This document shows, piece by piece, positions 9,005-33,996 of a stretch of DNA of 64,000 nt. This DNA is from Pelagihabitans pacificus. Its GTDB lineage: Bacteria > Bacteroidota > Bacteroidia > Flavobacteriales > Flavobacteriaceae. The notes below the pieces were generated by a model. The model saw only the letters and a list, made by a program, of their open reading frames with translations. It ran no database searches and was not told the origin of the DNA. The stretch's first letter is position 1; each line of letters begins with the position of its first letter. A program made the translations under genes and the position numbers. The stretch is taken from assembly GCF_009371985.2 (NCBI RefSeq), contig NZ_VIKU02000001.1:1612001-1676000 (forward strand), given 5' to 3'.

Positions 9005-9020
9005 TCGTGTTTGGGAAACC

Positions 9021-10358
9021 TTATTTGGAATTGCCTTCCGGTGCGGGATCGAAGACCCATTTATCGGCATACATGCCGTAGACTAGACCAATTTCGTTTT
9101 CCTGTACATATTTTTCGTCCTTCCCGGGATCAAAGTTCACGTTGTAGACATACACTTTGATGCCCGCATCCCTTAGTGCTAGGAGTAAATCGATTTCTTT
9201 CTGTATAATTCTTCTGGATAGCGCTACATATTGCACCTTATTGGCTTCCAAATACGTCAACTTATCCCCCTTTATTTTCGCTAAGGGTTCTTGGGAAATC
9301 ATGGGTGATATCCCATTTTTTGAGGCCTCCTCTATAGACATCAGGCTAAAGAGTTCCATGACCAACCTACTTTTATCAACGAACTGTTCGGCAAATTGGA
9401 TAGGGTCGTTCACCTTATCGGTAACCAAAATAGCGTCGGGATGGGCAGCGAACCATCGGTTGATCGCCTCAAAGTCCATCGTGGTGTACTTTCCATAAAT
9501 TTTGTGCTTCTTAAACTCGGCGTGGGTTACCGGCAGTTCCCCCGTGTAATCTGTAAATCGGGCCCACATTTTCCAATCATGCGCCGCCACGAGTTGGCCG
9601 TCCTTGGTTTTAATAATATCCAGCTCAAATAGCCGGAATCCCCTCCTGTAGTTTTGATCGAGGGCTTCGAGGCTATTGGTTGATTTGATACCGTCTACTT
9701 CACCTCCGGCATGGGCGATATAGCGATCGTTGCTCGGTTCGAATTCATACCGGATCCTTGGAAAATACTCATGTTCATGCCGAATATCGTCGGGAATGTC
9801 CAAATTTAGACGAATGGATACATCATCGACTCTTTCCTCAATTTTTCCGTTGAAGTTGTGCATGGCATAGGCTTGCCTATTTTTGAGTCTTCCTAATACC
9901 GTAAATCCAAGTTTTTGAAGTTCTTCGGCGTACTTACTGAGCGCGCCGGCAGCGGAATCGTGCGCCAGAACTGCAAAAACGGCGTTGTTCTCTTGCAATT
10001 TTTTGAGAACGGTCATAAGCTCCTCCGATGCTTTTTCGCTTCCGTAGGTATCGAATGATTTGAATTCGTAATCGGAAGAAGTTTTAAAGTGCACCACTGT
10101 CAATCCCCTTTCAACTCCCTCCTGGACACCACCGATCGAAAAACCACTTTTCTTTTGTGCATGAAAGCCGTGGCTGTTCAATACAATCTGGTCTTCGGAA
10201 AGAATAAATAAGTTGGCAGTTTCCCCTTTTTTAGCGGCTAGAAGATTTATTGGCGAACCCCAAACGAGTACAATAACAAGGGAACAAAACAGTGAAGTAT
10301 TCACTAAACGATTGGTTTTGTCATATAGGAGATCATATATAGTAGTTATGAGGCGCAT
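9021..10358 (-). CDS. Secreted ILEI/FAM3-like domain fused to GDPD-like phosphodiesterase
   Basis: The 445-residue protein begins with an export signal (hydrophobic residues about 20-36, L-A-A near 39-42). Residues about 47-168 form an ILEI/FAM3-type domain: S-G-F-S-I-G-G, R-G-L-T-V-V-H-F, F-D-T-Y-G, L-A-H-D-S-A-A-G-A and R-Q-A-Y-A. Residues about 210-440 form a glycerophosphodiester phosphodiesterase barrel: His216 in I-A-H-A-G-G, Glu245/Asp247 in F-E-L-D, His260 in A-A-H-D-W, Lys315 in V-T-D-K. The usual HRG is HAGG here. It probably acts in the periplasm or on the surface on glycerophosphodiesters. It is closely related to the C-terminal half of the 992-residue protein at 25949-28927, which matches it through both domains to the end (L-V-Y-G-M-Y-A-D). 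It appears monocistronic. Confidence 0.82.
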   Translation of the reverse strand: MRLITTIYDLLYDKTNRLVNTSLFCSLVIVLVWGSPINLLAAKKGETANLFILSEDQIVLNSHGFHAQKKSGFSIGGVQEGVERGLTVVHFKTSSDYEFKSFDTYGSEKASEELMTVLKKLQENNAVFAVLAHDSAAGALSKYAEELQKLGFTVLGRLKNRQAYAMHNFNGKIEERVDDVSIRLNLDIPDDIRHEHEYFPRIRYEFEPSNDRYIAHAGGEVDGIKSTNSLEALDQNYRRGFRLFELDIIKTKDGQLVAAHDWKMWARFTDYTGELPVTHAEFKKHKIYGKYTTMDFEAINRWFAAHPDAILVTDKVNDPIQFAEQFVDKSRLVMELFSLMSIEEASKNGISPMISQEPLAKIKGDKLTYLEANKVQYVALSRRIIQKEIDLLLALRDAGIKVYVYNVNFDPGKDEKYVQENEIGLVYGMYADKWVFDPAPEGNSK

Positions 10359-19426: not shown

Positions 19427-20839
19427 ATGGCCACCATATCCAAAAATCTTTTTTGGTCCTTAATCACCTCCGTACTACAACTCTATACCGGCAGTATTGT
19501 CTTTATCGCACTTGCTAAGCTGATGGCCGTGGAAGATTTTGGAATACTAAGTTTTGGTTTTTCCCTTTCGGCATTGGCCGTCATTGTGGCGGATTTCGGT
19601 TTTTCCCTAATGGTCATTAAGGACTACCCTAAACAAGGCGATCAAAGTGGCAAGTACCTGGCCAATAGCCTGCTCTCCAAAATGGTCCTGGCGGCGGTAA
19701 GTGGCATTTTTTTCTATATATACCTACTGCTGTTTTATAATGGTCAATGGCTACAAGTGGGTGGCTTGTACCTGGTGTTCGCTGTCGTGGCCTCTTTCAC
19801 CATTTATCTACAATCGCTTTTAAAAGTCCAAAATAGGTTTAACAAGTATACCGAGTCCAATTTGGTCTATGCCTTGGCTGTAACCATTTCCGTAGTGCTG
19901 TACTGGCACTTGAAACTGAGCCTTTTACAATTGGTTTTATGTCTGCTGGCCGCCAAGGCCATGCAGCTGCTTTGGACGACAGTACTGTGTAAATTCGATT
20001 TCATTAAGTTCTCCTATGACGGAAAATTAATGGGCAAACTGCTTAAAAACAGTTGGTCTTTTGGGGTGTTTGGAATTTTGGGCATCTTTTATTTTATGGT
20101 GGATACCCAGATCATTTCGGTTTACCTTGGGGCCAAGGAGGTGGCACTTTATCAAGCTGTTTTTCGGATCATATTGATTTTGATGGTGTTTTCGGATATT
20201 ATGTCGAACGTACTATTGCCCTATCTATCCTTTAAATTTTTTAATAAGGAAAACGTTGGGGAACTTGTATCAAAGCTATTTTTGTACCTATTGATTATTG
20301 GCTGTTCCCTTTTTCTTGCATTCACTTCGTTTAAGACCGAAGTGCTAACACTTCTATACACTCAAGAATACCAAGAGGCCGCTGCTCTGGTGCTGCCGTT
20401 TTCCATTGTTGTGATTCTGCGAACGGTGTCCACCTTATTGGGGAATATCTTGACCATTTCGAACAAACAGGTCTACCGGGTAATCACTGTTAGTGTCTCG
20501 TTGTTTGTGAGCCTGCTTTTAAACCTGATATGTATTCCAAAATATGGTATCCTAGCAGCGGCGTGGATCAGTGTCTTGGTTCATCTGATTCTGTTTGGAA
20601 TGTATTTTGCCTATAGCAGGATAGAAGTACCTTCTATTGAGCTCCATTCCCTATCGAACCTCTTTTTGGTGGCGGTTACCATTATCATCTACGGAATGAT
20701 ACATCATGTGACCAGTGGCGGTCTTTGGATCGTCTTGGGCTGTGCTGCACTCTGGCTATTGACAGTTTTCGGTATAATGAGGCAGGGCAATAACTTGGAT
20801 TTCTTGAAACAGGTCTTGAGAGAAAAAGGGGTAGGGTAA
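19427..20839 (+). CDS. wzx: Wzx-type polysaccharide flippase
   Basis: This 470-residue protein of about 12-14 membrane helices belongs to the MATE/MOP polysaccharide transporter family. It starts with the family's typical M-A-T-I-S-K-N-L-F-W-S and has the early A-K-L-M-A-V-E-D-F-G-I-L-S loop. It should flip undecaprenyl-linked repeat units across the inner membrane. It lies 9 bp after the MBL gene and upstream of two Wzy/ligase-type proteins, giving a Wzx/Wzy-dependent pathway. Confidence 0.9.
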   Translation: MATISKNLFWSLITSVLQLYTGSIVFIALAKLMAVEDFGILSFGFSLSALAVIVADFGFSLMVIKDYPKQGDQSGKYLANSLLSKMVLAAVSGIFFYIYLLLFYNGQWLQVGGLYLVFAVVASFTIYLQSLLKVQNRFNKYTESNLVYALAVTISVVLYWHLKLSLLQLVLCLLAAKAMQLLWTTVLCKFDFIKFSYDGKLMGKLLKNSWSFGVFGILGIFYFMVDTQIISVYLGAKEVALYQAVFRIILILMVFSDIMSNVLLPYLSFKFFNKENVGELVSKLFLYLLIIGCSLFLAFTSFKTEVLTLLYTQEYQEAAALVLPFSIVVILRTVSTLLGNILTISNKQVYRVITVSVSLFVSLLLNLICIPKYGILAAAWISVLVHLILFGMYFAYSRIEVPSIELHSLSNLFLVAVTIIIYGMIHHVTSGGLWIVLGCAALWLLTVFGIMRQGNNLDFLKQVLREKGVG

Positions 20840-20967: not shown

Positions 20968-21954
20968 ATGAGATTCAAGTTTATTGTTCTGCTGTTTATC
21001 GGATTTGCTCTTGGCGGTTGCTCCAAGGATGAAAATGCTGTTCAGGCCGAAATAGCAACGCTTCCTATTTCTAATATTGGGTTAAATTTTGCTGCTTCGG
21101 AGGGGTATGTGGCCAATAAAACTCCTTTAACGGAAACAACCAAAAAAGAGCTATGCTGGAGTAAGTCCCAAAACCCGACCATAAATGATTTTAAACAAGC
21201 ATCCAGCAATACCGTATTCGATGGTATTGCAGAATACCAGATTAATATGGTCGATCTAGATAGAAGCACACAATATTATGCACCAGCCTATGCCAAAATT
21301 GGTGAGAGTTAAATTTATGGGGAACAAATCTCATTTAGTACTGCAACTGAATATTTTACCGATAAAGGTTCATTTATTGATGTCCGGGACAATATGGAAT
21401 ACAAGTGGGTTACTATTGATGGTCTGACATGGATGGCAGAAAATCTAAAACACTCGAGGGGACTTGTTTTTGGAGAAAATGAAGCTTAAGTCTACGGATA
21501 TTCTGGGGAGTTGGACGGAGCAGGTTGGCCCATTGATTATGATTACGATTATACAATATCATTGGATAATTATAAAACCTACGGACTTATTTACGGTTCT
21601 GTTTTAGACATTTCCTGTCCACAAGGATGGCATGTCGCTACGGTGGAAGAATGGCTACAGCTAGTCAATTATTCTGGGGGAGTTCAAAATGCTGGAAGGC
21701 TTCTAAAGTCAAAGGGTACTGATTTATGGGCAGCTCCGAATGAGGCTACCAATGAAACAAACTTTTCTGTACTGCCCGAGGGTAATTTGTCGAGGTTTCA
21801 GTTTTACGATTATTCCGGTCTCGGGACGGCTACTTCCTTTTGGGCTGCTTCAACCAATTATAAACCAGTTTCCATACTATCTTTTTGGGATGATGACTTT
21901 GTATCGATTGAAGATGCGCGCTATTTTCAGACGGGGTATTGTAGATGTGTATAA
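20968..21954 (+). pseudogene. FISUMP-domain lipoprotein gene interrupted by two in-frame TAA codons
   Basis: A single frame runs from the ATG at 20968 to the TAA at 21952-21954, but has TAA stops at 21310-21312 and 21487-21489. No frame shift is needed. The N-terminus is a lipoprotein signal (G-F-A-L-G-G-C, Cys17). Residues about 30-125 look like a fibronectin-III-type module. The C-terminal part is a Fibrobacter succinogenes major paralogous (FISUMP) domain with W-M-A-E-N-L, C-P-Q-G-W-H-V-A, E-W-L-Q-L and N-E-T-N-F-S-V-L-P-E-G. Each stop is followed by Ile/Val-Tyr-Gly. The most likely reading is a decaying surface lipoprotein gene; only a 114-residue fragment with the signal would be made from the first start. 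It sits between flippase and polymerase. Confidence 0.8.
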
Positions 21955-22146: not shown

Positions 22147-23337
22147 ATGCGAAGCCTTCTTAAGCTTATTTTTATAATCACTTTGCTGGAGCTTTTTGTG
22201 GGCGGTGGTGGAAGGGTCTTCGAAATTGGTGGGGCCACCTTGCGCATCCTGCTTTTTTTCCTGAACATCGTGATTGTTTCAGTGCTCTATGTGTATCGAG
22301 CAAAAATTCCAAAATATGTCGTGGTGTTGGTGGCCTCGGTCCTATGCATTTTATTGTTTTATGCCGTTTTGGGATGGTTCAACGGAGCTCCATTTGCACT
22401 GATTGCCGAGGATGTAAAACCCTTGTCCTATTTTTTTAGCATCCTCTTTTTTAGCTATTTTATCGATAGCAAGGAACGGGTACAATTGATTGTTTCACTG
22501 ATCCAGAAGACTAGTCTGTTTATGGCTTTGGCCTATATCGGTATTCAATTGCTTTTTTTTCTGGGGAAAATTAGCTTTTTGCCTTTTTATGAATATGTAA
22601 ATACGAAGGTGTCCTCTTCAGATTTTATCTTCAGGGGAACGCAGGGGCTTTTCTTTTATAAGGGGTTTTTGTACATGGTGGTGGGACTCATTTTTTGGAT
22701 TCACAGTAAGAACTCGCAATATAAAGGGATATCGATCCTCATATTGATGACCGCCATGATTCTTACGGGAACCAGGGGCTTCATACTTATGTTCGGCTTG
22801 TTATATGCTTTGTTTTACGGAATCCCCTTGTTGTTGAAACTGAATATCAAGGTGCTCATTTTGGTAGCGGTGCTGGTCTTGGGCAGTGTCTATTTCTTTG
22901 GAAATTTTGAACTTGGCGATAAAGACCTCAGCGATTCTATTAGAATACAGCAGCTGATACAGGTGACGGAACGAATAAATCCTATTAGTTTTTTTATTGG
23001 CCACGGATTTGGTATCGGTGTGCCTGTTCGGGAAGTACATATGGAAATAGGGTATTTGGAAGTGTTTCATAAACAGGGTGTTCTTGGTCTATCTCTCTGG
23101 GGACTCCTTTTTATAATCCTGTACAACACCTATATTAGGGAGAAAAATTTTCTCGAAATCCGAAAACCCTTTTTCTTGGCTGTCCTGTTTGTTATTTTGT
23201 TGTCTTTGACCAATCCATTCTTTAATAATCCCATTGGAATATCACTATTCATGATTGCGCTATCCGCCTTCACCGCGCTCAATAAGACCGCGAAAAGAGA
23301 TGATTCAAAAATGGCTGTAAATGTGTCTGGCTCATGA
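22147..23337 (+). CDS. Wzy-like O-antigen/capsule polymerase
   Basis: The 396-residue protein has about ten membrane helices with a large central loop and the polymerase-family pattern I-G-H-G-F-G-I-G-V-P followed by E-V-F-H-K-Q-G-V-L-G. That is the Wzy_C-like signature in low-similarity form. It probably polymerises repeat units in the periplasm. Its stop overlaps the start of the next membrane protein by 4 bp (ATGA). Confidence 0.75.
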   Translation: MRSLLKLIFIITLLELFVGGGGRVFEIGGATLRILLFFLNIVIVSVLYVYRAKIPKYVVVLVASVLCILLFYAVLGWFNGAPFALIAEDVKPLSYFFSILFFSYFIDSKERVQLIVSLIQKTSLFMALAYIGIQLLFFLGKISFLPFYEYVNTKVSSSDFIFRGTQGLFFYKGFLYMVVGLIFWIHSKNSQYKGISILILMTAMILTGTRGFILMFGLLYALFYGIPLLLKLNIKVLILVAVLVLGSVYFFGNFELGDKDLSDSIRIQQLIQVTERINPISFFIGHGFGIGVPVREVHMEIGYLEVFHKQGVLGLSLWGLLFIILYNTYIREKNFLEIRKPFFLAVLFVILLSLTNPFFNNPIGISLFMIALSAFTALNKTAKRDDSKMAVNVSGS

Positions 23338-25076
23338 AGTTTCCGGGTTCAATTGCTATGGTTCCCAGAATAGTGTTATGTATGGCCCTCTCCTTGATTG
23401 TGAACATACTGATAGGCTATCACCTCCAATCCTTGCTTTCGGAAGGGCGTTTTTCTGTTTTGGTGGATGCCGAATACCCAAAGAATGGCAGCATGCAGCT
23501 ATTGTACGATACAGGAAAAAACTTCAATAATACCCAACAGGTTACCGCGATCGTAGGTAAAGGAAGGCAACAACTGCGATTTCCTTTTCAGATGCGAAAA
23601 GGGGGACAGCTTAGACACTTTCGCTTAGACTTTGGTTCGGACATCGGTATAAATAAGGTTGAAATTAATTCTGTCGCTTTTTACAATGATAAAAGCCGCC
23701 TTTTTCTTCTGGAAAAGTCGACTATAGCGAAGCGCTTGGGTTTTATGGCAGGTATTTCCGATGTGCAAGAGAACGCCGCGGTTTTTACCCTGAATGTCGA
23801 CACGACCCCTTTTGACCCTTATATTGTCTTTGACCCGGTAAACGAGTTGATCTATCCCAAATGGCAACGAACGCTGCTGTTGGTGCTCCCTTGGTTGGTT
23901 TTGTTAGTATTGCCGTTACTGCGCTGGTTGGGTGAATTAAAGGAACAAGGACACTATAGCTTACTATTTATTGGCTTGTTTATTGGCGCAATTCCCTTAA
24001 AAATCGCCTGGGTCACCTTTGCTAGCTTGTTGTTACTGGCTCACGCCATGTTGAATGGTTACCGGAAAAGACGATTCCAGTTTGGTCCAAGTCAAATCGC
24101 CCTACTAGTATTTTTTTTGGTTCCATTATTGTTTTTGGGGCAGGGTGAAGCCTCCAAACTGGCCATTCCCCTGGGTTTTGTATTATTTTCCCTGATTGGG
24201 GTGCTGGTTGATTTTTCAGCCCATGGTGTAGCCATCAAAAAAACATACATAACGGTATTTTTTGTGCTGATGTCCATCATTTGTGTGAGTTGGCTGTTGT
24301 TGATGCTCTATAGTGGGTATTATTACAATATTAATTGGTTCAACTATTTTACCAATATAAAATCGAACGCACATGCTACCTTGTATTGGTTATACTATCC
24401 GCATACCACCTTTCTATCATTTTTTATCGTGATTGGCGGCCTATTTTGTTTGGATCTCTATAGAAAAGGAGGGATATCCAGGGTCTATGGCTTAATGTAC
24501 GCCTTGTTCGCCCTATGTACTTTAATCCTTCTAGGGTCCCGCTTTGCCCTGCTCATGGGCCTAGCCCTGCCTTTTTTGTATCGCCTACCTGTCAGGCACC
24601 TATCCCGATGGGTGGTACCCATTTGGATGGCGATTTTTGCCGGAATCGTATATTTTATTGGCGTTTTGGACGTTCAACGGGAGCAGCTATGGAACGTTAC
24701 CTGGACTGCATTCAAGGATAAGATTTGGCTGGGCCATGGCACAGGAACATCCGATGCCGTTCTGCCGGACCATCTGCTTATCGATAAGGGCGGGGTAGAT
24801 ATTCTCATGGAAGTCAACCACTCCCACAATCAGTTCCTGACTTATCTTCTGGAAAATGGTTTGTTGGGCACCTTGCTTTTTCTTGCGGCCTTTTTATGGC
24901 TATTCTATCAATTTGTAAAACAGGGAAACAAAACCATGGTACTGGTGAGTTTCATGGTGTTGATGTTGATGGTAGTGGAATCACCATTTCGAACTACGAC
25001 TTCGCTTTACACAATTGCCTTCTTATTTACGGTGTTCTACCGTCCGGAAAAAACTATTAAGGCCGCGGGCAAATAA
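23334..25076 (+). CDS. O-antigen ligase/polymerase family protein with N-terminal beta-rich domain
   Basis: This is a 580-residue protein. An N-terminal membrane helix (about 11-31) is followed by an extracytoplasmic beta-rich domain (about 38-170, ending F-D-P-Y-I-V-F-D). About ten further membrane helices follow, with the Wzy_C/WaaL signature G-H-G-T-G-T-S and N-H-S-H-N-Q-F-L-T-Y-L-L-E-N-G-L-L-G. The N-terminal domain resembles the one in the AlgX-like protein at 34001. It may ligate polymer to a carrier or be a second polymerase. It is coupled to the preceding Wzy-like gene by a 4-bp overlap, and its 3' end overlaps the convergent lipid kinase gene by 20 bp. Confidence 0.8.
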   Translation: MKFPGSIAMVPRIVLCMALSLIVNILIGYHLQSLLSEGRFSVLVDAEYPKNGSMQLLYDTGKNFNNTQQVTAIVGKGRQQLRFPFQMRKGGQLRHFRLDFGSDIGINKVEINSVAFYNDKSRLFLLEKSTIAKRLGFMAGISDVQENAAVFTLNVDTTPFDPYIVFDPVNELIYPKWQRTLLLVLPWLVLLVLPLLRWLGELKEQGHYSLLFIGLFIGAIPLKIAWVTFASLLLLAHAMLNGYRKRRFQFGPSQIALLVFFLVPLLFLGQGEASKLAIPLGFVLFSLIGVLVDFSAHGVAIKKTYITVFFVLMSIICVSWLLLMLYSGYYYNINWFNYFTNIKSNAHATLYWLYYPHTTFLSFFIVIGGLFCLDLYRKGGISRVYGLMYALFALCTLILLGSRFALLMGLALPFLYRLPVRHLSRWVVPIWMAIFAGIVYFIGVLDVQREQLWNVTWTAFKDKIWLGHGTGTSDAVLPDHLLIDKGGVDILMEVNHSHNQFLTYLLENGLLGTLLFLAAFLWLFYQFVKQGNKTMVLVSFMVLMLMVVESPFRTTTSLYTIAFLFTVFYRPEKTIKAAGK

Positions 25077-25935
25077 TTTCCAAAGACTTAGGCAAGACCT
25101 TAACATTTAATGAAGGTACGTTCCACTCCAAACTCTCACCGTCAATCTGGATTTTAAGTGGCTGATCAGGGCCTAAAAGAGTAATGGCCTCTAATTGTTT
25201 CCGATGTATTCTTGTAAAGGATGGAAACTTACGAAAAAAGGCAAAAACCATGAATAAGGATAGTAAAAAGAGGTTCGATCGTTCTACCCGAATCATATCC
25301 AATTTTCCGTCGAATAGGCTTGCATCCGGCGTTAAGGTTCTATTGTAGCCTAATTGATCGGTATTCGAGAGTAACAGTAGGAAGGGGGTCGACTTTAAGC
25401 TTTCATCGTTTTCCAAAAGCTCAAAAGAGGAATATTTAAAAGATGAAACTGCCTTGAGAAATGCCCTGAAATAGGCTTTCATACCCCGTTGCGGCACTTG
25501 GTCGTAGCAGTGGATGACCTGGGCCGAAAAGGCAACACTGAAATTGCAAAAAAAATAACGGTCATTTATCCTTCCAACGTCCATTTTCCTGCTGTCGGAC
25601 TGTTTTAGTATTCTAAGAGCGGAGGAAAGCCTGGTCGGAATACCCAAGTGTCTGGCCAACCCGTTTCCAGAGCCAATGGGGAGTATGCCCATTGACACAG
25701 GCTTATTCACCAAACATTGAGCCACTTCGTTGACCGTTCCATCGCCCCCGCAGGCTACAATGGTTTGGGCTCCTTCTGAAATGGATGCCATGGTTAGTTC
25801 TATGGTGTGTCCTTTGTATTTCGATAATTTAATGGTCAGCAGATATTCATGCATGTTAAAATACCGCTGTACCTCGGATTTCACTCGCGCGGCATTGGGG
25901 GAAAGTTGGTTGACGATGAAATGGAGATTTCTCAA
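25057..25935 (-). CDS. Diacylglycerol kinase family lipid kinase (DgkB/YegS type)
   Basis: The 292-residue protein has the DAGK catalytic domain with G-G-D-G-T-V-N-E (63-70) and the glycine-rich P-I-G-S-G-N-G-L-A-R-H-L-G-I-P (86-100). A C-terminal beta-sandwich follows with the D-G-K-L-D-M-I metal-site region. It is a soluble, membrane-associated enzyme phosphorylating diacylglycerol or a related lipid. Its start lies 13 bp downstream of the 992-residue phosphoglycerol-transferase-like gene on the same strand, so the two form one unit. In E. coli the transferase MdoB/OpgB releases diacylglycerol that DgkA recycles; the arrangement here suggests the same division of labour (inference). Confidence 0.88.
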   Translation of the reverse strand: MRNLHFIVNQLSPNAARVKSEVQRYFNMHEYLLTIKLSKYKGHTIELTMASISEGAQTIVACGGDGTVNEVAQCLVNKPVSMGILPIGSGNGLARHLGIPTRLSSALRILKQSDSRKMDVGRINDRYFFCNFSVAFSAQVIHCYDQVPQRGMKAYFRAFLKAVSSFKYSSFELLENDESLKSTPFLLLLSNTDQLGYNRTLTPDASLFDGKLDMIRVERSNLFLLSLFMVFAFFRKFPSFTRIHRKQLEAITLLGPDQPLKIQIDGESLEWNVPSLNVKVLPKSLEIICPRP

Positions 25936-25948
25936 CGATATTATCTTG

Positions 25949-28927
25949 TCATTTACTATGGGTTTCTGCAGTGGTCATAAACGAAGGAATCCACTGATCG
26001 GCATACATACCATATACCAATCCTATTTCGTTATCAAAGACATGTTGTTCATCCTTTCCGGCATCAAAATTCACGTGATAAACATATACTTTGATTTGAT
26101 TTTCCCTAAATGCCGAGAGTAATTGCTTTTTGTTGGCGATATTTCTACGCGACATGGCAATGTGGTTGACATTGTTTGCCTTCAAGTAGGACATAATATC
26201 CCCTTCAATCTTGCCCAAAAGACTTTCTGAAAGCAAGGGGACTACTCCGACCGTGACCGCCTCTTTAACCGCAGAAAGACTAAACAGTTCCATCATGAGA
26301 CGATTTTTATCTACAAATTGTGAGGCAAAATTTTCCGGGTTATTGACCTTGTCGGTTATCAGTATCGCATCGGAATGCTTCCCAAACCACTCGTTGATCG
26401 TGCGCATATCCAAGGGGGTGTACTTATCGCGTATTTTATACTGTTTGAATTCTGAAAGGGAGACAGGGGTATTCCCCAGGTATTTGGTTTCTTTGGCCCA
26501 ATGACCCCAATCATGCGCGGCGACATACTCCCCGTCGGAAGTTTCGAGTATGTCAAGTTCGAAAAGACGAAATCCTTCCGCGTAATTATAATCGAGTGCC
26601 TCCCTGGTATTTGTATACTTAATGCCATTTATCATTCCACCAGCATGGGCAATATAACGATCTGTCCTGGGAACAAATTCCAATTTGGATGGAGCAAAAT
26701 AGCTGTTATTATTCTTGATATCTTTAGGGTAGGGAACGTCCGTTTTTAAGGTCGTACCATCTACGAGCTCAATTTGTTTTCCCTCAAGGCTATAGCCTAA
26801 ATAGGCTTGTCTGTCCAATAGTCCACTTAGTTTTTCTAACCCTAATGCCTTGAGTTCATTTGAAAAATGATGTAGACTTTTGGCGGCCGAGTCATGGGCA
26901 AGAATGATGTACTGTGCATTGTCTTTCGTCAAGCTTTCCAATATGCCGATAAATGCTTTCGTATCCTCCCGACTACCGTAAGTATCAAAAGTTCTGTGTT
27001 CGTACCCCATTTTCGTGGTATTGAAGTAAAGGAGGGTCAGGCCTCTAGATACCTGTTCTTTCTTACCCCTTATTGAGAAACTACTGGGCTTTTTGGCGTT
27101 CCAGCTATTGCTCTCAAGGATGATGTATTCCTGTTTATCCTCCACAAGGGCAATACTGCCCAAGAGTGCTAAATCATCCTTGTCAAAAACTAGTTCGTCC
27201 GTACCTTTTTTTGTGATTCCAAAGTGATGTTCACCCTTAAGAGACCCATGAAGATTCCCATTCGTCACAAAAATATCCAAATAGGCAAATGACTTGGGAT
27301 CATTGAGCAATCGGTTTATCTCTATTTGATAGTCATTAAAAGGTCTTAGATTTTTATCAAATAAAACACGTTGGCACGATCCCCTATCCGGTAACTTGTT
27401 CGACAGCACCATAAGGTCTTCGCTGTTCCTGATTTCAAATTCCGCCTTTTCTTTGTTTATCGTAACGTAAATTCCATCTTCGCAGTCCAGTGTTTTAAGC
27501 GCTGCATCATTCAGCCTTAACAGATTTTTATCGTTCTGGCGCAAAAATGCGTTTTTATCCGGCTCGATTATAAAATCGGTCAGGAACTTTGCATTATGTT
27601 TGACCCCCGCCCCATCCAAGATAAGTTTAGGAAGGTCAATTTGGTAAATGTCTTGGTTCAGCCGATATGTTGATCGTACAGCTTCTGAGTTCGTGATAAC
27701 ATATAGGGACCGTTCCTCAAAATCTTCCAAAACCCTTGATTTGTTTCCCATTAAGAGATGATCGGGATATATATAAAAGACTGTATTCGAAAGCATCCCT
27801 TCCTTGTCCATGAAATCTATCAAGTCTCCCACAAAATAATCTGTTGCCGAGACCATTAATTCCAACCTGCTCTTTTGAGAGGGTAATAGACTGTCAACCC
27901 TTCTATCTGGAACTCCATTGGGAAAATGTGTTGAAATTGAGGAGAGGAACAAGGCAAAGGGTTCTGTGGATTCTTTTTTTAAAAGAAGCTCCTTCTTAAA
28001 TTCGGCAAACAGGTCCATATCCTGAATACCCCAATCCACTACGTCATATTTGGTGTCAAAGTCTTTTTCCGATTTGACTGTAAAGCCGAGGGTTTTTAGC
28101 ATATCATCAATTCCGGAATACTCTTTTTTTCCAATAAAATATTGGAGATCATAACCTGCACTTTTTAGTACATCCGCTAGGGACGTGAGTTTATTTTCAT
28201 AACTATTCTGAAAAACACTGTTGCCATGGGTCCCGAAAAAAGCAGGTACCCCGGTCACCATGGTATACATAGATGCTGAGGTCCATCCTCCAGCCGGGGA
28301 TTGCTTCATATTGTAAAAGGAATGGCGCTTCGCTAGGTCGGATAGGTTTGGGGTAAGGTGCTTTAATTTTGCTCCCAAATATCCCTTTTCCATGGATTCC
28401 AAGGATAGAACAATGATATTCTTTCCCTTGGAGGCCTTTATTTTTTCCTTTCCAACGTACTGGTTTTCATCAATGTTAAGGGAAGAAAGTGCCTCATTGA
28501 AGGAAGCGTTCCCAGCAAATTTTAGCAGTATTGTTGAATAGGCGTTATTGAGAATACCGCCAGATAAACTCAACACAATGACACCTACAACCAGTCCTAC
28601 GACCAAAGGAAGCCGATTATGAAAATTGGACCTAATAAACCTAGCGAGGTAGTGGATGAGCACTATACTTCCAAATAGGGCCAAGACTACTAAGACCCCT
28701 TCTTTTCCAAAAAATCCGGCAACAGAGAGCACGTCTCCTAGATTAAAATTCTCATAAAACCTATAATCGGCAATTTCTCCGGTTACAATGACCGAACTGA
28801 GTTGGACGACATATATAAGGGCTAAAAAAAAAGATAGGAATACTGAAAAAACCTTGTTTCCTAATGGAATAAAAGACCTGATAATTGACAGAATCAGTAA
28901 TAGTATAATCAGTTGAATTGCCAACAT
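25949..28927 (-). CDS. Membrane phosphoglycerol transferase-like / ILEI / GDPD three-domain fusion
   Basis: A 992-residue protein. Four membrane helices occupy about residues 3-22, 27-49, 74-94 and 106-126. Residues 168-445 form a sulfatase/alkaline-phosphatase-fold domain of the OpgB/LtaS kind: Glu178 in L-S-L-E-S, Thr216 in G-G-W-T-S-A-S in the nucleophile position, His334 in S-T-H-F, Asp389-His390 in Y-P-D-H. The M-x-T-M-V-T-G-V-P-A-F-F stretch recalls the OpgB active-site region. Residues 601-712 are an ILEI/FAM3-like domain (R-G-L-T-L-L-Y-F, F-D-T-Y-G, L-A-H-D-S-A-A, R-Q-A-Y). Residues 755-985 are a GDPD-like barrel (His761, Glu790, Asp792, His805, Lys860). Domains 2 and 3 resemble the 445-residue protein at 9021-10358 throughout. 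The catalytic parts should face the periplasm. Probable role: transfer of phosphoglycerol from phosphatidylglycerol to a surface glycan, plus its removal. Confidence 0.85.
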   Translation of the reverse strand: MLAIQLIILLLILSIIRSFIPLGNKVFSVFLSFFLALIYVVQLSSVIVTGEIADYRFYENFNLGDVLSVAGFFGKEGVLVVLALFGSIVLIHYLARFIRSNFHNRLPLVVGLVVGVIVLSLSGGILNNAYSTILLKFAGNASFNEALSSLNIDENQYVGKEKIKASKGKNIIVLSLESMEKGYLGAKLKHLTPNLSDLAKRHSFYNMKQSPAGGWTSASMYTMVTGVPAFFGTHGNSVFQNSYENKLTSLADVLKSAGYDLQYFIGKKEYSGIDDMLKTLGFTVKSEKDFDTKYDVVDWGIQDMDLFAEFKKELLLKKESTEPFALFLSSISTHFPNGVPDRRVDSLLPSQKSRLELMVSATDYFVGDLIDFMDKEGMLSNTVFYIYPDHLLMGNKSRVLEDFEERSLYVITNSEAVRSTYRLNQDIYQIDLPKLILDGAGVKHNAKFLTDFIIEPDKNAFLRQNDKNLLRLNDAALKTLDCEDGIYVTINKEKAEFEIRNSEDLMVLSNKLPDRGSCQRVLFDKNLRPFNDYQIEINRLLNDPKSFAYLDIFVTNGNLHGSLKGEHHFGITKKGTDELVFDKDDLALLGSIALVEDKQEYIILESNSWNAKKPSSFSIRGKKEQVSRGLTLLYFNTTKMGYEHRTFDTYGSREDTKAFIGILESLTKDNAQYIILAHDSAAKSLHHFSNELKALGLEKLSGLLDRQAYLGYSLEGKQIELVDGTTLKTDVPYPKDIKNNNSYFAPSKLEFVPRTDRYIAHAGGMINGIKYTNTREALDYNYAEGFRLFELDILETSDGEYVAAHDWGHWAKETKYLGNTPVSLSEFKQYKIRDKYTPLDMRTINEWFGKHSDAILITDKVNNPENFASQFVDKNRLMMELFSLSAVKEAVTVGVVPLLSESLLGKIEGDIMSYLKANNVNHIAMSRRNIANKKQLLSAFRENQIKVYVYHVNFDAGKDEQHVFDNEIGLVYGMYADQWIPSFMTTAETHSK

Positions 28928-29090: not shown

Positions 29091-30224
29091 ATGAAACATA
29101 TTTTGATTACCGGTGGGGCAGGATTTATTGGTTCCAATCTCGCACTAAAACTGATTTCCAAGGGCTATGAAATTACTGTTTTGGACAGTCTTTCAGAGCA
29201 AATCCATGGAAAAGACCCCGAGGAATCCTCACCCTTGTACAATTCCATAAAAGATAAGGTCAAATTGATCAAAGGGGATGTTACCAATATTGGGGATTGG
29301 AAAAAAGCCATAGCAGGGCAGGATGCTATAGTCCACTTTGCGGCAGAGACAGGAACGGGTCAGTCTATGTACGAAGTGAATAAATATGTATCTGTCAACA
29401 TACAGGGAACTGCACTCATGTTAGACCTTTTGGTCAATATGTCCAACGGTGTAAAAAAAGTGATTATCGCCTCGTCTAGATCAATTTATGGAGAGGGAAA
29501 GTACTTTAGCAAAGAATTGGGGCATGTATATCCGGAGCACAGGGACGGGGCCGATATGGACCAAAAGGACTTTGAGGTGAAGTACCCTGACAGTTCGCCC
29601 TTGGAATTGGTAGCGACTGATGAAGAATCAAAAATACATCCATCATCGGTTTACGGAATAACCAAGCAGAATCAGGAGCAGATGGTGATGACCGTATGCC
29701 CTACCGTTGGAATCTCGCCCGTGGCCTTCCGTTACCAAAACGTGTATGGCCCTGGGCAATCCTTGTCCAATCCATATACCGGAATTCTATCCATTTTTTC
29801 CACCCAGATCAAGAATGGCAACGGCATCAACATTTTTGAGGACGGCAAAGAAAGCCGTGATTTTGTCTATATAGACGATGTGGTCGATGCGACTATTCTT
29901 GGACTGGAAAAGGAGGAGGCCAATGGGGAAGTTTTTAATGTAGGAACGGGAGTGGCAACGGATGTGGTTACCGTTGCCAATACCCTAATTCAAAACTATG
30001 GGATCGAAACCCCATTGACCATTACTGGGAATTACAGGCTTGGGGATATACGACATAATTATGCAGACCTTAGTAAGATAAGGGCCAAACTGGGTTTTGA
30101 ACCGAAGGTCGATTTCAAAGAGGGCATTCGCTGTTTCACGGAATGGGTGAACACCCAAGAAATCAAGGAAGACCATTATGAAAAGTCCATCGCTGAAATG
30201 AAGAAGAAGGGCATGTACAGGTAA
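29091..30224 (+). CDS. NAD-dependent nucleotide-sugar epimerase, possibly dTDP-L-rhamnose 4-epimerase
   Basis: The 377-residue extended SDR has G-G-A-G-F-I-G-S at residues 8-15, I-I-A-S-S-R-S-I-Y-G, catalytic S-S-V-Y-G-I-T-K and the C-terminal R-L-G-D-I-R-H-N-Y-A-D. An insertion after the active-site Ser strand (about residues 140-180) ending in P-L-E-L-V-A-T-D-E is like that of WbiB/Tll-type dTDP-L-rhamnose 4-epimerases. With rmlBACD nearby this would give dTDP-6-deoxy-L-talose. The alternative is a UDP-glucose 4-epimerase relative; SDR substrate assignment from motifs alone is unsure. It leads a second glycan operon. Confidence 0.75.
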   Translation: MKHILITGGAGFIGSNLALKLISKGYEITVLDSLSEQIHGKDPEESSPLYNSIKDKVKLIKGDVTNIGDWKKAIAGQDAIVHFAAETGTGQSMYEVNKYVSVNIQGTALMLDLLVNMSNGVKKVIIASSRSIYGEGKYFSKELGHVYPEHRDGADMDQKDFEVKYPDSSPLELVATDEESKIHPSSVYGITKQNQEQMVMTVCPTVGISPVAFRYQNVYGPGQSLSNPYTGILSIFSTQIKNGNGINIFEDGKESRDFVYIDDVVDATILGLEKEEANGEVFNVGTGVATDVVTVANTLIQNYGIETPLTITGNYRLGDIRHNYADLSKIRAKLGFEPKVDFKEGIRCFTEWVNTQEIKEDHYEKSIAEMKKKGMYR

Positions 30225-30227
30225 GCT

Positions 30228-30899
30228 ATGAGAAAAATCCTTTCCTTATTCCTACTACTAATTTCAATCGCTTCCTATGGACAGGACTTTGGGATAAGTG
30301 CTGGAATAAACAGTTTCAACCTAAGGGAGCATTTTATTCCTACCCCTAGAAGTTGTTGCAAGACCAGCACGTCGGATTTTTTAAATTATCAAAACGTATT
30401 TGGTGTCAACTTTGGCGGATTTGCGAATTTTAGACTCAACGACCTGTTGTCAATCTTGGGAGAGCTGCAATATAGTCAAAAAGGATTTCAGGCAGATGGC
30501 GTCAAAAACCCTTTTCTGGAATTTCAAACCGAATATTATGCCCGAAAACTCACACTTAATTATTTGGAGCTCCCCATAATGCTAAAAGCAACCATCGGGA
30601 AACAAAAAAAATGGTCTCCATATGCATTGGGAGGAATCTATTTTTCATATTTGCTAAGTGGTAGGCACCAGCTATACGATGCTCCACCAAATGTTCGTGT
30701 CAATTCGGTAGATGAGCTTATGGACAATTTTGATTGGGGCATTCGAGCGGGTTTGGGGGTTACCTATCTAAGGTTTTCTATGGATGTAAATTTTGTGGCA
30801 GGGATATATAATGCTACTGGCCCCTTTCCTTTTGGTGCCAGAAAAAAGAACGTGGGATGGAACGCTACATTGAGGTACTGGATAAATGTACGAAAATAG
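30228..30899 (+). CDS. Outer-membrane beta-barrel protein (porin family)
   Basis: The 223-residue protein has a clear signal peptide (M-R-K-I-L-S-L-F-L-L-L-I, cleavage after S-Y-G before Q). It then alternates in the manner of an OmpA/OmpW-like eight-stranded barrel (PF13568-like), ending in aromatic-rich R-Y-W-I-N-V. It begins 3 bp after the epimerase stop, an unusual place for a barrel, inside a glycosylation operon. No catalytic motif was seen; its role is unknown, perhaps envelope structure. Confidence 0.8.
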   Translation: MRKILSLFLLLISIASYGQDFGISAGINSFNLREHFIPTPRSCCKTSTSDFLNYQNVFGVNFGGFANFRLNDLLSILGELQYSQKGFQADGVKNPFLEFQTEYYARKLTLNYLELPIMLKATIGKQKKWSPYALGGIYFSYLLSGRHQLYDAPPNVRVNSVDELMDNFDWGIRAGLGVTYLRFSMDVNFVAGIYNATGPFPFGARKKNVGWNATLRYWINVRK

Positions 30900-30937
30900 A
30901 TTTTGCAAAATTTCACCATAGGCGTAATCAGACTTAT

Positions 30938-31792
30938 ATGAATGATTTCATAAACTCCCTCTCGATTATTATCGTGGTATACAACACCGCCCTGGATGAT
31001 TCCGAGTCGTTCCAATCGGTGGTGGCAATGGTAGGGAACGGAACCCCGCTAGATATCTTCGTTTATGACAACTCCCCCAACCCACAGCGCATTGGAGAGT
31101 ATCCCGGATTGCGGATTACTTATTTTCATGACCCAAAAAACTCCGGGGTGAGTAAAGCATACAATACCGGGGCCGCCCATGCCCGGCAGCACCAAAATAA
31201 ATGGGTCTTACTTCTCGATCAAGACACTGTTTTGCCCTATACCATCCTGGCCGACTATGAAAAAGCAGTGGCCCAAAACCCGGAAATTGATCTGTTTGTT
31301 CCCATACTACGTTTGGCCAACGGCAAAATATTCTCTCCTTGTACCTTTAAATTTAAAAGGGGGTTTTATCCCGATGATCTGAAATTGGGTGTAAACCCAC
31401 TAGACCGATTATCCCCGGTGAACAGTGGAATGCTGGTGAGCGTTGAAGCTTTTTTTAGTGTTGAAGGATATAATGAGCAGGTAAAACTGGATTTTGCCGA
31501 CTTTCAGTTTATTGAGCGTTTTCGAAAGCGATATCCCGATTTTTATGTGATGGATGTGGAATGCCAACAGGATTTCTCGGATGACGAAGTTTCTTATTCC
31601 AGTCAGGCAAACCGGTTTAAGTATTATTGCGAAGGGGCGCGAAATATCGAAAAAAGAGGGGTTTGGGATTGGCTTCAGTATAATGGAGTCGTTTTTCTTA
31701 GGGCCTTGAGACTAACGGGGCGGTACAGGGAATGGCAGTTTTTAAAGACCTATTTCAACAATTTTTTGTTTCCTAACCATTCAAAGCCATAG
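30938..31792 (+). CDS. Family 2 glycosyltransferase (rhamnosyltransferase-like)
   Basis: From the ATG at 30938 the protein has 284 residues and begins M-N-D-F-I-N-S-L-S-I-I-I-V-V-Y-N-T, as GT2 enzymes do. Further motifs are K-N-S-G-V-S-K-A-Y-N-T-G and the D-x-D-type L-L-D-Q-D-T. The frame is open further upstream to 30857, but that start lies inside the barrel gene and adds 27 residues without family character. It resembles rhamnosyltransferases with L-D-Q-D, consistent with the dTDP-rhamnose genes in the locus, but the donor is not proven. Confidence 0.85.
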   Translation: MNDFINSLSIIIVVYNTALDDSESFQSVVAMVGNGTPLDIFVYDNSPNPQRIGEYPGLRITYFHDPKNSGVSKAYNTGAAHARQHQNKWVLLLDQDTVLPYTILADYEKAVAQNPEIDLFVPILRLANGKIFSPCTFKFKRGFYPDDLKLGVNPLDRLSPVNSGMLVSVEAFFSVEGYNEQVKLDFADFQFIERFRKRYPDFYVMDVECQQDFSDDEVSYSSQANRFKYYCEGARNIEKRGVWDWLQYNGVVFLRALRLTGRYREWQFLKTYFNNFLFPNHSKP

Positions 31793-31843
31793 CAAACACC
31801 TGGATTTGTCTTAAGTTTGCACCCAGATACCATCCCTGACCGC

Positions 31844-32563
31844 ATGAAGATTTCAGTTTGCATGGCCACCTACAATGGAGCGCAATTTTTACGGGAGCAA
31901 CTGGACTCTGTATTGAAGCAATTATCCGCCAATGACGAATTGATTATTTCGGACGATGGTTCCACAGATCGAACGGTCGATATCATTGAGTCTTACGCTG
32001 ACGAGCGAATACAACTATTTCACTCAACCCATCAAAATCTGATCTTCAATTTCGAAAATGCCTTGAAAAGGGCAAGCGGGGACCTTATTTTCCTATGCGA
32101 CCAAGATGACATCTGGTTCGATAATAAGGTAGAGAAATGTGTTCACTATCTAAAAAAATACGCATTGGTATTTTCAAATGCGGCCATGTTTCAAGGAGAA
32201 AAAATAGAGGAAAACGAGCTTTTCTTTAAAGATTCCAGAAAGAAGACCGGCACACTGTCCAATTTGATTAAAGTTAAGTTTTTGGGGGCCACGATGGCCT
32301 TTAGAAGAGCTATTTTGGAAAGGGCCCTTCCCTTTCCGCGAAATTTGGCGATGCATGATATCTGGCTGGGAATGATTGCCGAAACAACGGCCTCTACCTT
32401 TTATATCGATGAACCTCTTATTTATTATCGAAGGCACCAAAATACCGCCTCCACCGCAGGTAATAAAAGTAAAAATTCCCTTTACACTAAAATAAAGATC
32501 AGATATGACCTTGTAATCAACCTATGCAAGCGCGTTTGGTTTAAGAAACCAGAAAACAACTAA
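31844..32563 (+). CDS. Family 2 glycosyltransferase
   Basis: The 239-residue enzyme starts M-K-I-S-V-C-M-A-T-Y-N-G-A-Q-F-L, with S-D-D-G-S-T-D and the metal motif L-C-D-Q-D-D. It is of the short GT2 type common for rhamnosyl transfer. An upstream in-frame TTG at 31817 is possible, but a TAAGTTTG element (31812-31819) overlaps it, so the ATG at 31844 is preferred. It is followed at 14 bp by the MBOAT gene. Confidence 0.87.
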   Translation: MKISVCMATYNGAQFLREQLDSVLKQLSANDELIISDDGSTDRTVDIIESYADERIQLFHSTHQNLIFNFENALKRASGDLIFLCDQDDIWFDNKVEKCVHYLKKYALVFSNAAMFQGEKIEENELFFKDSRKKTGTLSNLIKVKFLGATMAFRRAILERALPFPRNLAMHDIWLGMIAETTASTFYIDEPLIYYRRHQNTASTAGNKSKNSLYTKIKIRYDLVINLCKRVWFKKPENN

Positions 32564-32577
32564 GTTTTACTTCCAAT

Positions 32578-33996
32578 ATGGTATTTAGCTCTACGGTTTT
32601 TCTTTTTATTTTCTTGCCGCTGGTTTTGACTATCAATTTTTTATTGAAACAGGAGTATCGAAATTTTTTCCTCCTTCTTGCCAGTTTGGTGTTTTATGCA
32701 TGGGGTGAGGGCATCCTAGTTTTACTTATGCTTTCTTCTATAAGTGTCAATTACATTTCAGGAATTGGTATCTCGTATTTTCTCGAACGCAAGCACAGCT
32801 ATTCTAAAATAATTTTGGCCTTGGCGGTGACCGTCAATCTTAGCCTTTTGTTTTATTACAAGTATGCCAATTTCATTGTAGCGACCCTCAAGGAAATGGG
32901 GTTTTACCTGGAATACGACCATAAAAATATTCTCTTGCCAATTGGGATCTCATTCTTTACCTTCCAAGGCATTTCTTATTTGGTGGACGTGCACCGAAAA
33001 GAAACTCCAGTGCAACATAACCTCTTTCATTTGGGGTTATATATCTCGTTTTTTCCACAGTTGATTGCAGGCCCCATTGTGCGGTACCATGATATTGCCC
33101 AAGAGATAAAGGAGCGTTCTATCGATGTGTCTTTGTTCACCGCGGGAGTAATTAGGTTTATCCGTGGCCTTGCCAAAAAAGTAATTATTGCAAACAGTGC
33201 CGCCCTAATTGCCGACCAGGTATTTTCTGTTACAGTTACTGAAATATCTACCCTTACCGCTTGGATGGGCATTATATGCTATACCATTCAAATATATTTT
33301 GATTTTTCCGGCTATTCGGATATGGCCATAGGATTGGGAAAAATGTTGGGGTTCAATTTTAAGGAGAATTTTAACTATCCCTACATTTCTAAGTCTATCC
33401 AGGATTTTTGGAGAAGATGGCATATTTCACTTTCAACCTGGTTCAGGGACTATTTATACATTCCTTTGGGGGGCAACAGAAAAGGCCTAGGGAGAACCTA
33501 TGCCAATTTGATCATTGTTTTTTTTGTTACCGGGCTGTGGCATGGGGCTAGTTGGAACTTTGTCTTTTGGGGCCTTTTCCATGGTGCCTTTCTTATATTG
33601 GAGCGAAGCGGGATTTTAGATACTAAAAAATGGCCTATAATGTTTCAGCATATTTATGTCTTGGGAACTGTTGTCGTGGGATGGGTATTTTTCAGGGCAG
33701 AAACGATGACCGATGCATTCGCTTATTTAAACAATATGATCGGACGGTCTGGAGGGGACGATACTACTGCTCTAATCTATGTAAACCCTTATGTGCTGTT
33801 TATAATGCTATTAGCAATTATTTTTTCCATGCCGGTACGTCAAAGAATGAATGAAGCCATTTTGAAGGTTAAGTCGACTTGGGTACGGACAGGGTTTAGA
33901 ACTGGGATTTATTTTTTTTATATCGCCTTGTTGGTATTGTCCATTATAGAATTGGCACAATCCAGTTATAACCCTTTTATTTATTATAGATTTTGA
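32578..33996 (+). CDS. MBOAT family O-acyltransferase (AlgI-like)
   Basis: This is a 472-residue polytopic protein of the AlgI/DltB class. It has the R-R-W-H-I-S-L-S-T-W-F-R-D-Y-L-Y-I-P-L-G-G-N block and the presumed catalytic His322 in G-L-W-H-G-A-S-W-N-F. It should pass acyl (usually acetyl) groups through the inner membrane. The AlgX-like gene begins 4 bp after its stop, giving the usual two-part glycan O-acetylation system. Confidence 0.93.
   Translation: MVFSSTVFLFIFLPLVLTINFLLKQEYRNFFLLLASLVFYAWGEGILVLLMLSSISVNYISGIGISYFLERKHSYSKIILALAVTVNLSLLFYYKYANFIVATLKEMGFYLEYDHKNILLPIGISFFTFQGISYLVDVHRKETPVQHNLFHLGLYISFFPQLIAGPIVRYHDIAQEIKERSIDVSLFTAGVIRFIRGLAKKVIIANSAALIADQVFSVTVTEISTLTAWMGIICYTIQIYFDFSGYSDMAIGLGKMLGFNFKENFNYPYISKSIQDFWRRWHISLSTWFRDYLYIPLGGNRKGLGRTYANLIIVFFVTGLWHGASWNFVFWGLFHGAFLILERSGILDTKKWPIMFQHIYVLGTVVVGWVFFRAETMTDAFAYLNNMIGRSGGDDTTALIYVNPYVLFIMLLAIIFSMPVRQRMNEAILKVKSTWVRTGFRTGIYFFYIALLVLSIIELAQSSYNPFIYYRF

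Follow-up and report, generated by a model that had tools for sequence, protein, structure and literature searches.

A conserved Pelagihabitans pacificus membrane protein with OpgB/LtaS-type, ILEI, and GDPD domains, a possible editor of glycan phosphodiesters

What would a bacterium do with a single membrane protein that holds both a predicted writer of phosphodiesters and a predicted enzyme that acts on such diesters? The question is raised by a 992-residue fusion protein encoded in a 64,000-nucleotide stretch of Pelagihabitans pacificus DNA (NZ_VIKU02000001.1; the window), in which a membrane anchor and an OpgB/LtaS-type domain are followed by an ILEI domain and a GDPD barrel. Coordinates are positions in the window, and residue numbers are those of the fusion. 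Our answer, held tentatively and slightly below an even call, is that the protein is a membrane-anchored, periplasm-facing editor of glycan phosphodiesters.

The fusion protein and its domains

The open reading frame (ORF) occupies exactly 25949-28927 of the minus strand, has an ATG start, and encodes 992 residues with the following layout.

25949..28927, minus strand: fusion protein, 992 residues, with membrane anchor, OpgB/LtaS-type domain, beta-rich spacer, ILEI domain, and GDPD barrel (ORF, Pfam/NCBIfam, AlphaFold models)
28505..28927, minus strand: membrane anchor, residues 1-141 (hydropathy, model helices, OpgB profile PRK12363)
27491..28450, minus strand: OpgB/LtaS-type domain of the alkaline-phosphatase superfamily, residues ~160-479 (Pfam Sulfatase, Foldseek, invariant residues)
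27152..27487, minus strand: beta-rich spacer domain, residues ~481-592 (model strands 485-582)
26723..27130, minus strand: ILEI (FAM3/POMGnT1-stem-like) domain, residues ~600-735 (profile matches, alignments, conservation)
25952..26665, minus strand: GDPD barrel, residues ~755-992 (profile, residue conservation, model, Foldseek)

The anchor contains hydrophobic stretches at residues 1-53, 66-99, and 101-130 by hydropathy, and a full-length AlphaFold model built on a 12-row alignment (mean predicted local distance difference test score, pLDDT, 77.7; predicted template-modeling score, pTM, 0.49) placed helices at residues 2-18, 25-49, 74-101, 106-120, and 125-136. These were followed in the model by the alkaline-phosphatase-type domain, the beta-rich spacer, and the C-terminal parts, with low confidence for the first part of the GDPD barrel; the ILEI+GDPD half modeled separately reached a pLDDT of 85.0 and a pTM of 0.64. 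The fusion is not a product of chance, because relatives are found in other Bacteroidota at 50-66% identity and in two gammaproteobacterial metagenome-assembled genomes (MAGs) at 34-40%. We conclude that the three-domain fusion is real. The original prediction, made from the letters of the DNA, that three domains are joined in a single membrane protein was borne out by Pfam, family profiles, and models. In the Pfam search that it proposed, Sulfatase exceeded its cut-off, whereas GDPD and ILEI fell below theirs for the whole protein and were supported by family evidence. Its residues T216, H334, D389-H390, H761, and H805 are positioned as it described, but residue 178, given as Glu, is Ser, and the first Glu is Glu177. 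Its assignment of residues 600-712 to ILEI held at the level of sequence, with just partial support for the fold. Its functional reading is partly supported: addition of glycerol phosphate, hydrolysis by the GDPD, and self-editing of one glycan are possibilities. It mentioned neither the free-standing paralogue of the window nor the lipid kinase gene 13 bp downstream of the fusion, and the versions without ILEI and the LtaS-GDPD pairing in other genomes lay beyond the DNA that it covered.

The first domain resembles OpgB (MdoB), LtaS, and LtaP in having a membrane anchor ahead of an alkaline-phosphatase-superfamily domain that carries a Thr and a Glu/Asp/His set, and in its best profile and fold matches. 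Pfam Sulfatase matched residues 169-394 (E 3.2e-19, 69.8 bits, cut-off 25), and the best NCBIfam match of the fusion was phosphoglycerol transferase I (OpgB), which covered residues 1-397 (1e-23), anchor included; the alignment to the OpgB profile PRK12363 starts at residue 1. When the full-length model was searched with Foldseek, the Vibrio structure 3lxq and the LtaS/LtaP structures 4uoo, 4uor, and 2w8d ranked first, with target template-modeling (TM) scores of 0.53-0.57. Conservation was assessed over 42 proteins, namely 13 full fusions (the P. pacificus protein included), 8 fusions without ILEI, and 21 free-standing ILEI-GDPD proteins, with duplicates and one broken locus (L011) excluded. 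E177, T216, H334, D389, and H390 were invariant in all 21 fused proteins (13 full and 8 without ILEI). T216 was aligned by HMMER with a Thr of Listeria LtaS that we take to be the catalytic one; the catalytic roles given here to residues of the first and GDPD domains are likewise presumed from work on LtaS and on GDPDs. The fusion differs from OpgB and LtaS in its added ILEI and GDPD domains, in a score far below the NCBIfam equivalog cut-off for OpgB (83.9 bits vs 572), and in belonging to a genome without detected OpgG.

The match of the fusion to Pfam ILEI (PF15711) at residues 628-709 (E 4.1e-4, 21.2 bits, or 24.9 for the isolated domain) lies below the cut-off of 27. The identity of the domain is nevertheless supported by the family profile evidence. 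Of 34 ILEI segments in the family, 31 matched PF15711 at E <= 0.01 (best 3.4e-9), and a paralogue in the same genome exceeded the cut-off at 38 bits. Against the Protein Data Bank (PDB), the family ILEI profile found FAM3B (6.9e-5), FAM3A (2.4e-4), cell-surface hyaluronidase (0.0026), and FAM3C (0.0041), with a weak match to POMGnT1 (0.22); a single-sequence PDB search with the ILEI segment of the fusion gave no match. The ILEI fold rests on profiles because no FAM3 structure was present among the 50 matches listed for each Foldseek search, which were dominated by sulfatases and GDPDs; in the ILEI+GDPD model, secondary structure is the one indication of fold for the ILEI part. In the Foldseek viral library, matches were obtained to an ILEI-annotated protein of Fadolivirus, a giant virus (2.5e-5), and to two ILEI-annotated phage proteins (0.27 and 0.60).

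According to an excerpt of PMC9802357, Arg129, Asp179, and Arg207 of the POMGnT1 stem contact N-acetylglucosamine directly and are conserved in FAM3 proteins, and an excerpt of PMC9437275 describes equivalents of Arg129 and Asp179 in a phage carbohydrate-binding module. The putative sugar triad of the fusion is R628, D679, and R706. Profile alignments place the Arg/Asp/Arg of the family onto the FAM3 residues, and the correspondence to POMGnT1 itself was drawn from the spacing (51 and 27 in the fusion vs 50 and 28 according to the POMGnT1 numbering) and from the FAM3 statement of that paper. The RGL, FDT, D, and R motifs are common to the family and to the ILEI domains of FAM3, the POMGnT1 stem, and cell-surface hyaluronidase. 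The triad was complete in 31 of 34 ILEI domains; R706 is replaced in L007 and L008, and L062 has lost all three residues. With the triad reported for POMGnT1 and FAM3 retained, the ILEI domain is a likely sugar binder; unlike its counterparts it is bacterial and sandwiched between two enzyme domains, where sugar binding is putative.

The C-terminal domain resembles the GDPD family (GlpQ, UgpQ, and the lysophosphatidylglycerol phospholipase D 8ghh) in its TIM-barrel fold and His/ExD/His set. Pfam GDPD (PF03009) matched residues 773-812 (E 1.6e-4) with 22.3 bits for the whole protein and 26.4 bits for the C-terminal half alone, relative to a cut-off of 23.6; a whole-genome search with PF03009 (E <= 0.001) listed the paralogue (27.2 bits) and a canonical GDPD, and not the fusion. 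The active set comprises H761, E790, D792, H805, and K860, and these residues, together with T858 and D859, were invariant in 42 of 42 proteins. Among the 50 Foldseek matches listed for the ILEI+GDPD model, most were solved GDPDs, with target TM scores mostly of 0.55-0.74 and lower values (0.45-0.48) for E. coli GlpQ 1t8q and protein D. A GDPD fold is thus supported by the predicted structure. The first row was the phage phi812 spike 9eul (target TM 0.47), which, like the C-terminal domain of phage K gp155 (9f5m), has the GDPD fold and is among the best structural matches; the two differ from the fusion as phage parts. Phage parts with this fold may act on wall polymers.

Conservation, distribution, and pairing in trans

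Mean pairwise identity across the 13 full fusions was the same, 52%, in the two enzyme domains and fell to 34% in the anchor, 32% in ILEI, and 23% in the spacer, the lowest of the five parts. In the alignments, both predicted active sites are conserved across the family. The survey for the same fusion across Bacteroidota that the original prediction proposed found relatives with both sites kept, and the intact GDPD His/Glu/Asp/His/Lys positions that it claimed are present and conserved in 42 of 42, but with the arginine of the HRG motif changed.

An ILEI-GDPD profile matched 45 of 397 genomes of the family at E <= 0.001; the match was strong (E < 1e-90) in 38 genomes and only weak in 7. On the basis of frame length and match range, the 38 strong genomes were assigned 9 full fusions, 7 fusions without ILEI, 25 free-standing forms, and 1 unclassified case (G033), with 4 genomes carrying both the full and the free-standing form. 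The only strong matches in a 395-genome sample of the phylum were the two of the window itself, and 11 other genomes matched weakly. ILEI-like matches in two other genomes of the phylum (L047 in G470 and L052 in G415) lie inside open frames of 1,786 and 1,768 residues. A contig search with the fusion protein yielded 10 loci, including two in gammaproteobacterial MAGs (one three-domain, one without ILEI); a sample of 185 genomes from the class to which one of these MAGs belongs gave no match beyond the MAG itself. The first 474 residues matched 78 of the 397 family genomes at E <= 1e-10. All 16 close copies of the first domain (E < 1e-70) belonged to proteins fused to a GDPD, of which 9 have ILEI and 7 lack it, and the next match was at 9.5e-21 and 30% identity.

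These counts bear on whether the arrangement arose by evolutionary accident, with no coupling of function, or has one inactive half. The absence of ILEI from 8 of 21 aligned fused proteins and the loss of the triad in L062 would fit such an accident, but both active sites are invariant in the aligned members and none of the 16 close first-domain copies in the 397 genomes is unfused; we consider this explanation very unlikely.

In the GDPD tree one change sufficed for the free-standing form in 200 of 200 bootstrap trees (branch support 32/99), as against three for the full form; the tree gives no firm direction for the origin of the fusion, since its two outgroup branches, at 8.7 and 10, are very long. 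A natural gene split in Maribacter halichondriae (L011, 6001-8957) was considered and rejected: its two ORFs do not share a frame, the C-terminal end of the second one is unrelated, and the break, in a complete genome, looks like frameshifts (mutation) or sequencing error. Phage and plasmid origins were also rejected, as the ILEI-GDPD half had no match in 50,697 phage records (E <= 0.1) and the whole protein none in 72,556 plasmid records (E <= 1e-20). The GDPD part alone matched two plasmid-filed records, from Acetoanaerobium (2.6 Mb) and Prevotella (1.8 Mb). The fusion is conserved and uncommon, with component parts of known kinds in an arrangement new to us; neither an OpgB/LtaS-ILEI-GDPD nor an OpgB-GDPD fusion is described in the titles and abstract openings searched, a coverage that excludes most subscription journals.

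The second ILEI-GDPD protein of the window is free-standing.

9021..10358, minus strand: paralogue of 445 residues with a hydrophobic N-terminus, ILEI, and GDPD, 52% identical to fusion residues 599-980

Apart from this protein and the fusion, no ILEI match was obtained in the genome (E <= 0.01), and the other free-standing proteins have, by eye, a similar hydrophobic N-terminus. An LtaS-like gene (>= 66% identity to the query) is carried by 25 of 25 genomes with the free-standing form, and by only G001 and G289 among the other 372. This gene, which encodes TPR repeats, lies 1.3-1.7 kb from the free-standing gene in 19 of the 25 genomes, and in the 15 of those 19 that were fetched it is accompanied by GT2 synthase-like and YaiO barrel genes. 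At one locus (L010, 7235-12340, minus strand) the conserved set of GT2 synthase-like gene, LtaS-like gene with TPR repeats, and YaiO barrel gene resembles a synthase-dependent system for polysaccharide export that includes a phospho-decorating enzyme. In the remaining 6 of 25 genomes, that of P. pacificus included, the free-standing gene has GH3 and dTDP-sugar genes for neighbors, and the LtaS-like gene lies at another site. In the window, a GH3-family gene and a DUF6909 gene occupy 7508-9004 and 10589-12274, and their positions beside the free-standing gene and the dTDP-sugar genes are kept in the six genomes. Within genera, G396, G032, G176, and G307 have neither gene, and each has a congener with the pair; in G001 the LtaS-like gene occurs without an ILEI-GDPD partner, and two of its congeners have both.

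Two cases from outside the family, which do not constitute a survey, show related pairings. In Acetoanaerobium noterae (Clostridia; L097, 7536-10639) an LtaS-like gene lies 89 bp downstream of the gene for a secreted-looking GDPD without the HRG arginine (27.7% identity over 93%, E 3e-12). In Prevotella oral taxon 299 (L098, 2403-7212) a GDPD (27.2% over 44%, E 4e-7) with DxD where ExD is usual lies between a LicD gene and a glycosyltransferase-like gene, with a flippase gene also close by. A third record, from Fusobacterium and found with the Acetoanaerobium GDPD, has an HRG-type GDPD and no relevant neighbor.

The pairing also bears on a scavenging role, in which the GDPD would act on periplasmic lipids or glycerophosphodiesters and be tethered for location only, with no glycan shared between the domains. 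Ordinary GDPDs cleave phospholipid-derived glycerophosphodiesters (GlpQ, excerpt of PMC7086022), and a lipid kinase gene adjoins that of the fusion. However, the free-standing form retains ILEI, a likely sugar binder, and not a lipid-binding part, the pairing with an LtaS-like protein recurs, one relative lies beside LicD, and the subfamily is distinct from the canonical GDPD of the genome. We regard scavenging as quite improbable.

A possible editor of glycan phosphodiesters

An editing role is supported by the invariance of the catalytic residues, the equal 52% conservation of the two enzyme domains, the GDPD fusion of all 16 close first-domain copies, the pairing in trans, the triad kept in 31 of 34 domains, the adjacent kinase, and the surrounding polysaccharide genes. 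As the OpgB/LtaS-type domain suggests, Thr216 would accept a polar headgroup phosphate, most likely sn-glycerol-1-phosphate (Gro1P) from phosphatidylglycerol, and pass it onto a surface glycan, and the leftover diacylglycerol would be rephosphorylated by the product of the adjacent lipid kinase gene. E. coli OpgB takes phosphoglycerol from phosphatidylglycerol, and diacylglycerol accumulates without Dgk (excerpt of PMC3818809). The glycan would be gripped by the ILEI domain, as its kept triad suggests, and the GDPD-like domain would then act on the new phosphodiester, most likely by removal or trimming, such that a single chain would set the phosphate load of the glycan.

Several observations weigh against this reading, and they begin with the lipid donor and the acceptor. 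No PgsA over the cut-off was found in the P. pacificus genome (best 39 bits vs 109), in a weak test that only 6 of 14 control genomes pass, which leaves phosphatidylglycerol a putative donor. The genome has three CDP-alcohol transferase matches, of which one is PssA-like (89.5 bits, cut-off 107) and another (L100, the 39-bit match) could be a divergent PgsA. OpgG (PF04349, E <= 0.01), which belongs to the acceptor pathway of E. coli, was also absent from the genome matches, and was matched in 1 of 14 control genomes (E. coli); osmoregulated periplasmic glucans were set aside as the acceptor on that ground. The donor might instead be phosphatidylethanolamine or another lipid and the mark phosphoethanolamine rather than phosphoglycerol. 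This alternative is consistent with one PssA-like CDP-alcohol transferase and none over the PgsA cut-off, with the distance of the fusion from the OpgB equivalog cut-off, and with the kinase neighbor, which is compatible with either donor. On the other hand, the best matches are the OpgB profile and LtaS-type structures, and the gammaproteobacterial relatives match the OpgB profile more strongly than the fusion does (6.4e-37 and 8.8e-33). No phosphoethanolamine-transferase model was among the Pfam/NCBIfam matches listed, though MCR-1 appeared at Foldseek rank 16 for the full-length model, and the PgsA cut-off, which L100 misses, fails in 8 of 14 control genomes. We judge phosphoethanolamine to be a somewhat unlikely mark.

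The chemistry of the GDPD domain supplies two further points of this kind. The HRG arginine is Ala in 41 of 42 proteins (HAG) and Gly in 1 of 42, as compared with Arg in 7 of 7 canonical GDPDs aligned, and the usual E/D-x-K motif reads T858-D859-K860, invariant in 42 of 42, in an alignment of uncertain register. Ordinary hydrolysis is not assured because of these two changes, by which, along with fusion to or pairing with a transferase, the domain differs from GDPDs of the GlpQ/UgpQ type. The two distant relatives, from Acetoanaerobium and Prevotella, also lack the HRG arginine but have D-x-K intact, a hint that the third acidic ligand may be D859. B. subtilis GlpQ cleaves glycerol-3-phosphate (Gro3P), but not intact Gro1P polymers, in an excerpt of PMC7086022. 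A product derived here from phosphatidylglycerol would be Gro1P rather than Gro3P, so the divergent GDPD could be the matching Gro1P enzyme.

These changes also invite a two-step relay, in which the first domain would load a headgroup phosphate on a sugar or carrier, after which the GDPD-like domain, as a transferase, would move the diester to a different hydroxyl on the ILEI-bound glycan. GDPD-derived synthetases are known: AvrBs2 synthesizes a sugar phosphodiester and is placed close to agrocinopine synthase in a phylogenetic tree (excerpt of PMC12807533), and it is without detected activity on glycerophosphocholine in an excerpt of PMC3228805. In line with a relay, every aligned member keeps His/Glu/Asp/His and lacks the HRG arginine, and the genome has a canonical GDPD elsewhere. 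AvrBs2 and agrocinopine synthase resemble the fusion in having a GDPD-type site tied to sugar phosphodiesters, but this is a mechanistic analogy only; the profile similarity is weak and unspecific and the fusion is envelope-located. The profile match was dropped as evidence of kinship: although 11 of 12 members touch the AvrBs2 profile (E <= 1), the canonical GDPD of the genome matches alike (3.4e-4, compared with 6e-4 for the best member), the NCBIfam cut-off of 1000 bits was not reached, and the match in the fusion is one short stretch. Moreover, one lost arginine is no proof of changed chemistry, and the distant relatives suggest that the third acidic ligand, D859, is retained. Cutting and transfer by the GDPD are indistinguishable from sequence, and we hold the relay to be unlikely.

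The genes around the fusion include polysaccharide genes and the lipid kinase gene.

19427-20839, plus strand: Wzx-type flippase (Pfam Polysacc_synt)
22147-23337, plus strand: polymerase/ligase-like membrane protein (sequence only)
23334-25076, plus strand: polymerase/ligase-like membrane protein (Wzy_C)
25057..25935, minus strand: diacylglycerol kinase-type lipid kinase, 13 bp downstream of the fusion on the same strand (Pfam DAGK_cat, E 2e-26)
29091-30224, plus strand: NAD-dependent sugar epimerase (Pfam)
30857-31792 and 31817-32563, plus strand: glycosyltransferase-like genes (sequence and conserved neighborhood clusters)
32578-33996, plus strand: MBOAT-like gene (sequence and conserved neighborhood clusters)

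Between the flippase and polymerase genes, ORFs of 114 and 147 residues at 20968-21954 are apparent pieces of one lipoprotein gene. The kinase passes the YegS/DAGK subfamily cut-off (TIGR00147, 119.1 bits vs 118.65) and lies downstream of the fusion at 5 bp in L004 and 14 bp in L009; in L003, from a MAG, the kinase gene beside the fusion (8968-9856) is broken into several frames. Polysaccharide genes surround 8 of the 13 full fusions, a count made partly by eye in which L008 is included by a single glycosyltransferase-like neighbor. The editing reading is weakened by the other 5 of 13 (L058-L062), which by eye are amid housekeeping-looking genes, and by the kinase being a neighbor in only 4 of the 13 full loci, one of them broken, with L008 and L058 ending <= 0.7 kb downstream. 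The pairing in trans has its own counterweight: LtaS-like genes are widespread, with 93 of the 397 genomes having one at E <= 1e-30 and most of these lacking ILEI-GDPD, and the link holds for the close LtaS-like version only and is confounded by kinship and linkage.

The fusion and its trans-paired relatives may represent a new class of self-contained glycan-phosphate editors. In such an editor, of which at least two phyla would have examples, a lipid-headgroup transferase would work together with a divergent GDPD on the same chain (in cis) or on another (in trans); the GDPD would either erase the phosphodiester that the transferase makes or relocate it, often with ILEI as a shared sugar grip. 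We put this forward as a doubtful but worthwhile proposal, with the GDPD possibly a Gro1P-specific enzyme or a sugar-phosphodiester synthetase. In the systems known to us, the addition of phosphate to surface sugars and its removal are split among separate enzymes. A single conserved chain with both sites would offer a direct handle on how a bacterium sets the charge of its surface sugars, and the fusion is a test case for whether a GDPD fold beside a transferase cuts or transfers. The ILEI domain gains a bacterial setting in which a sugar-binding role can be probed.

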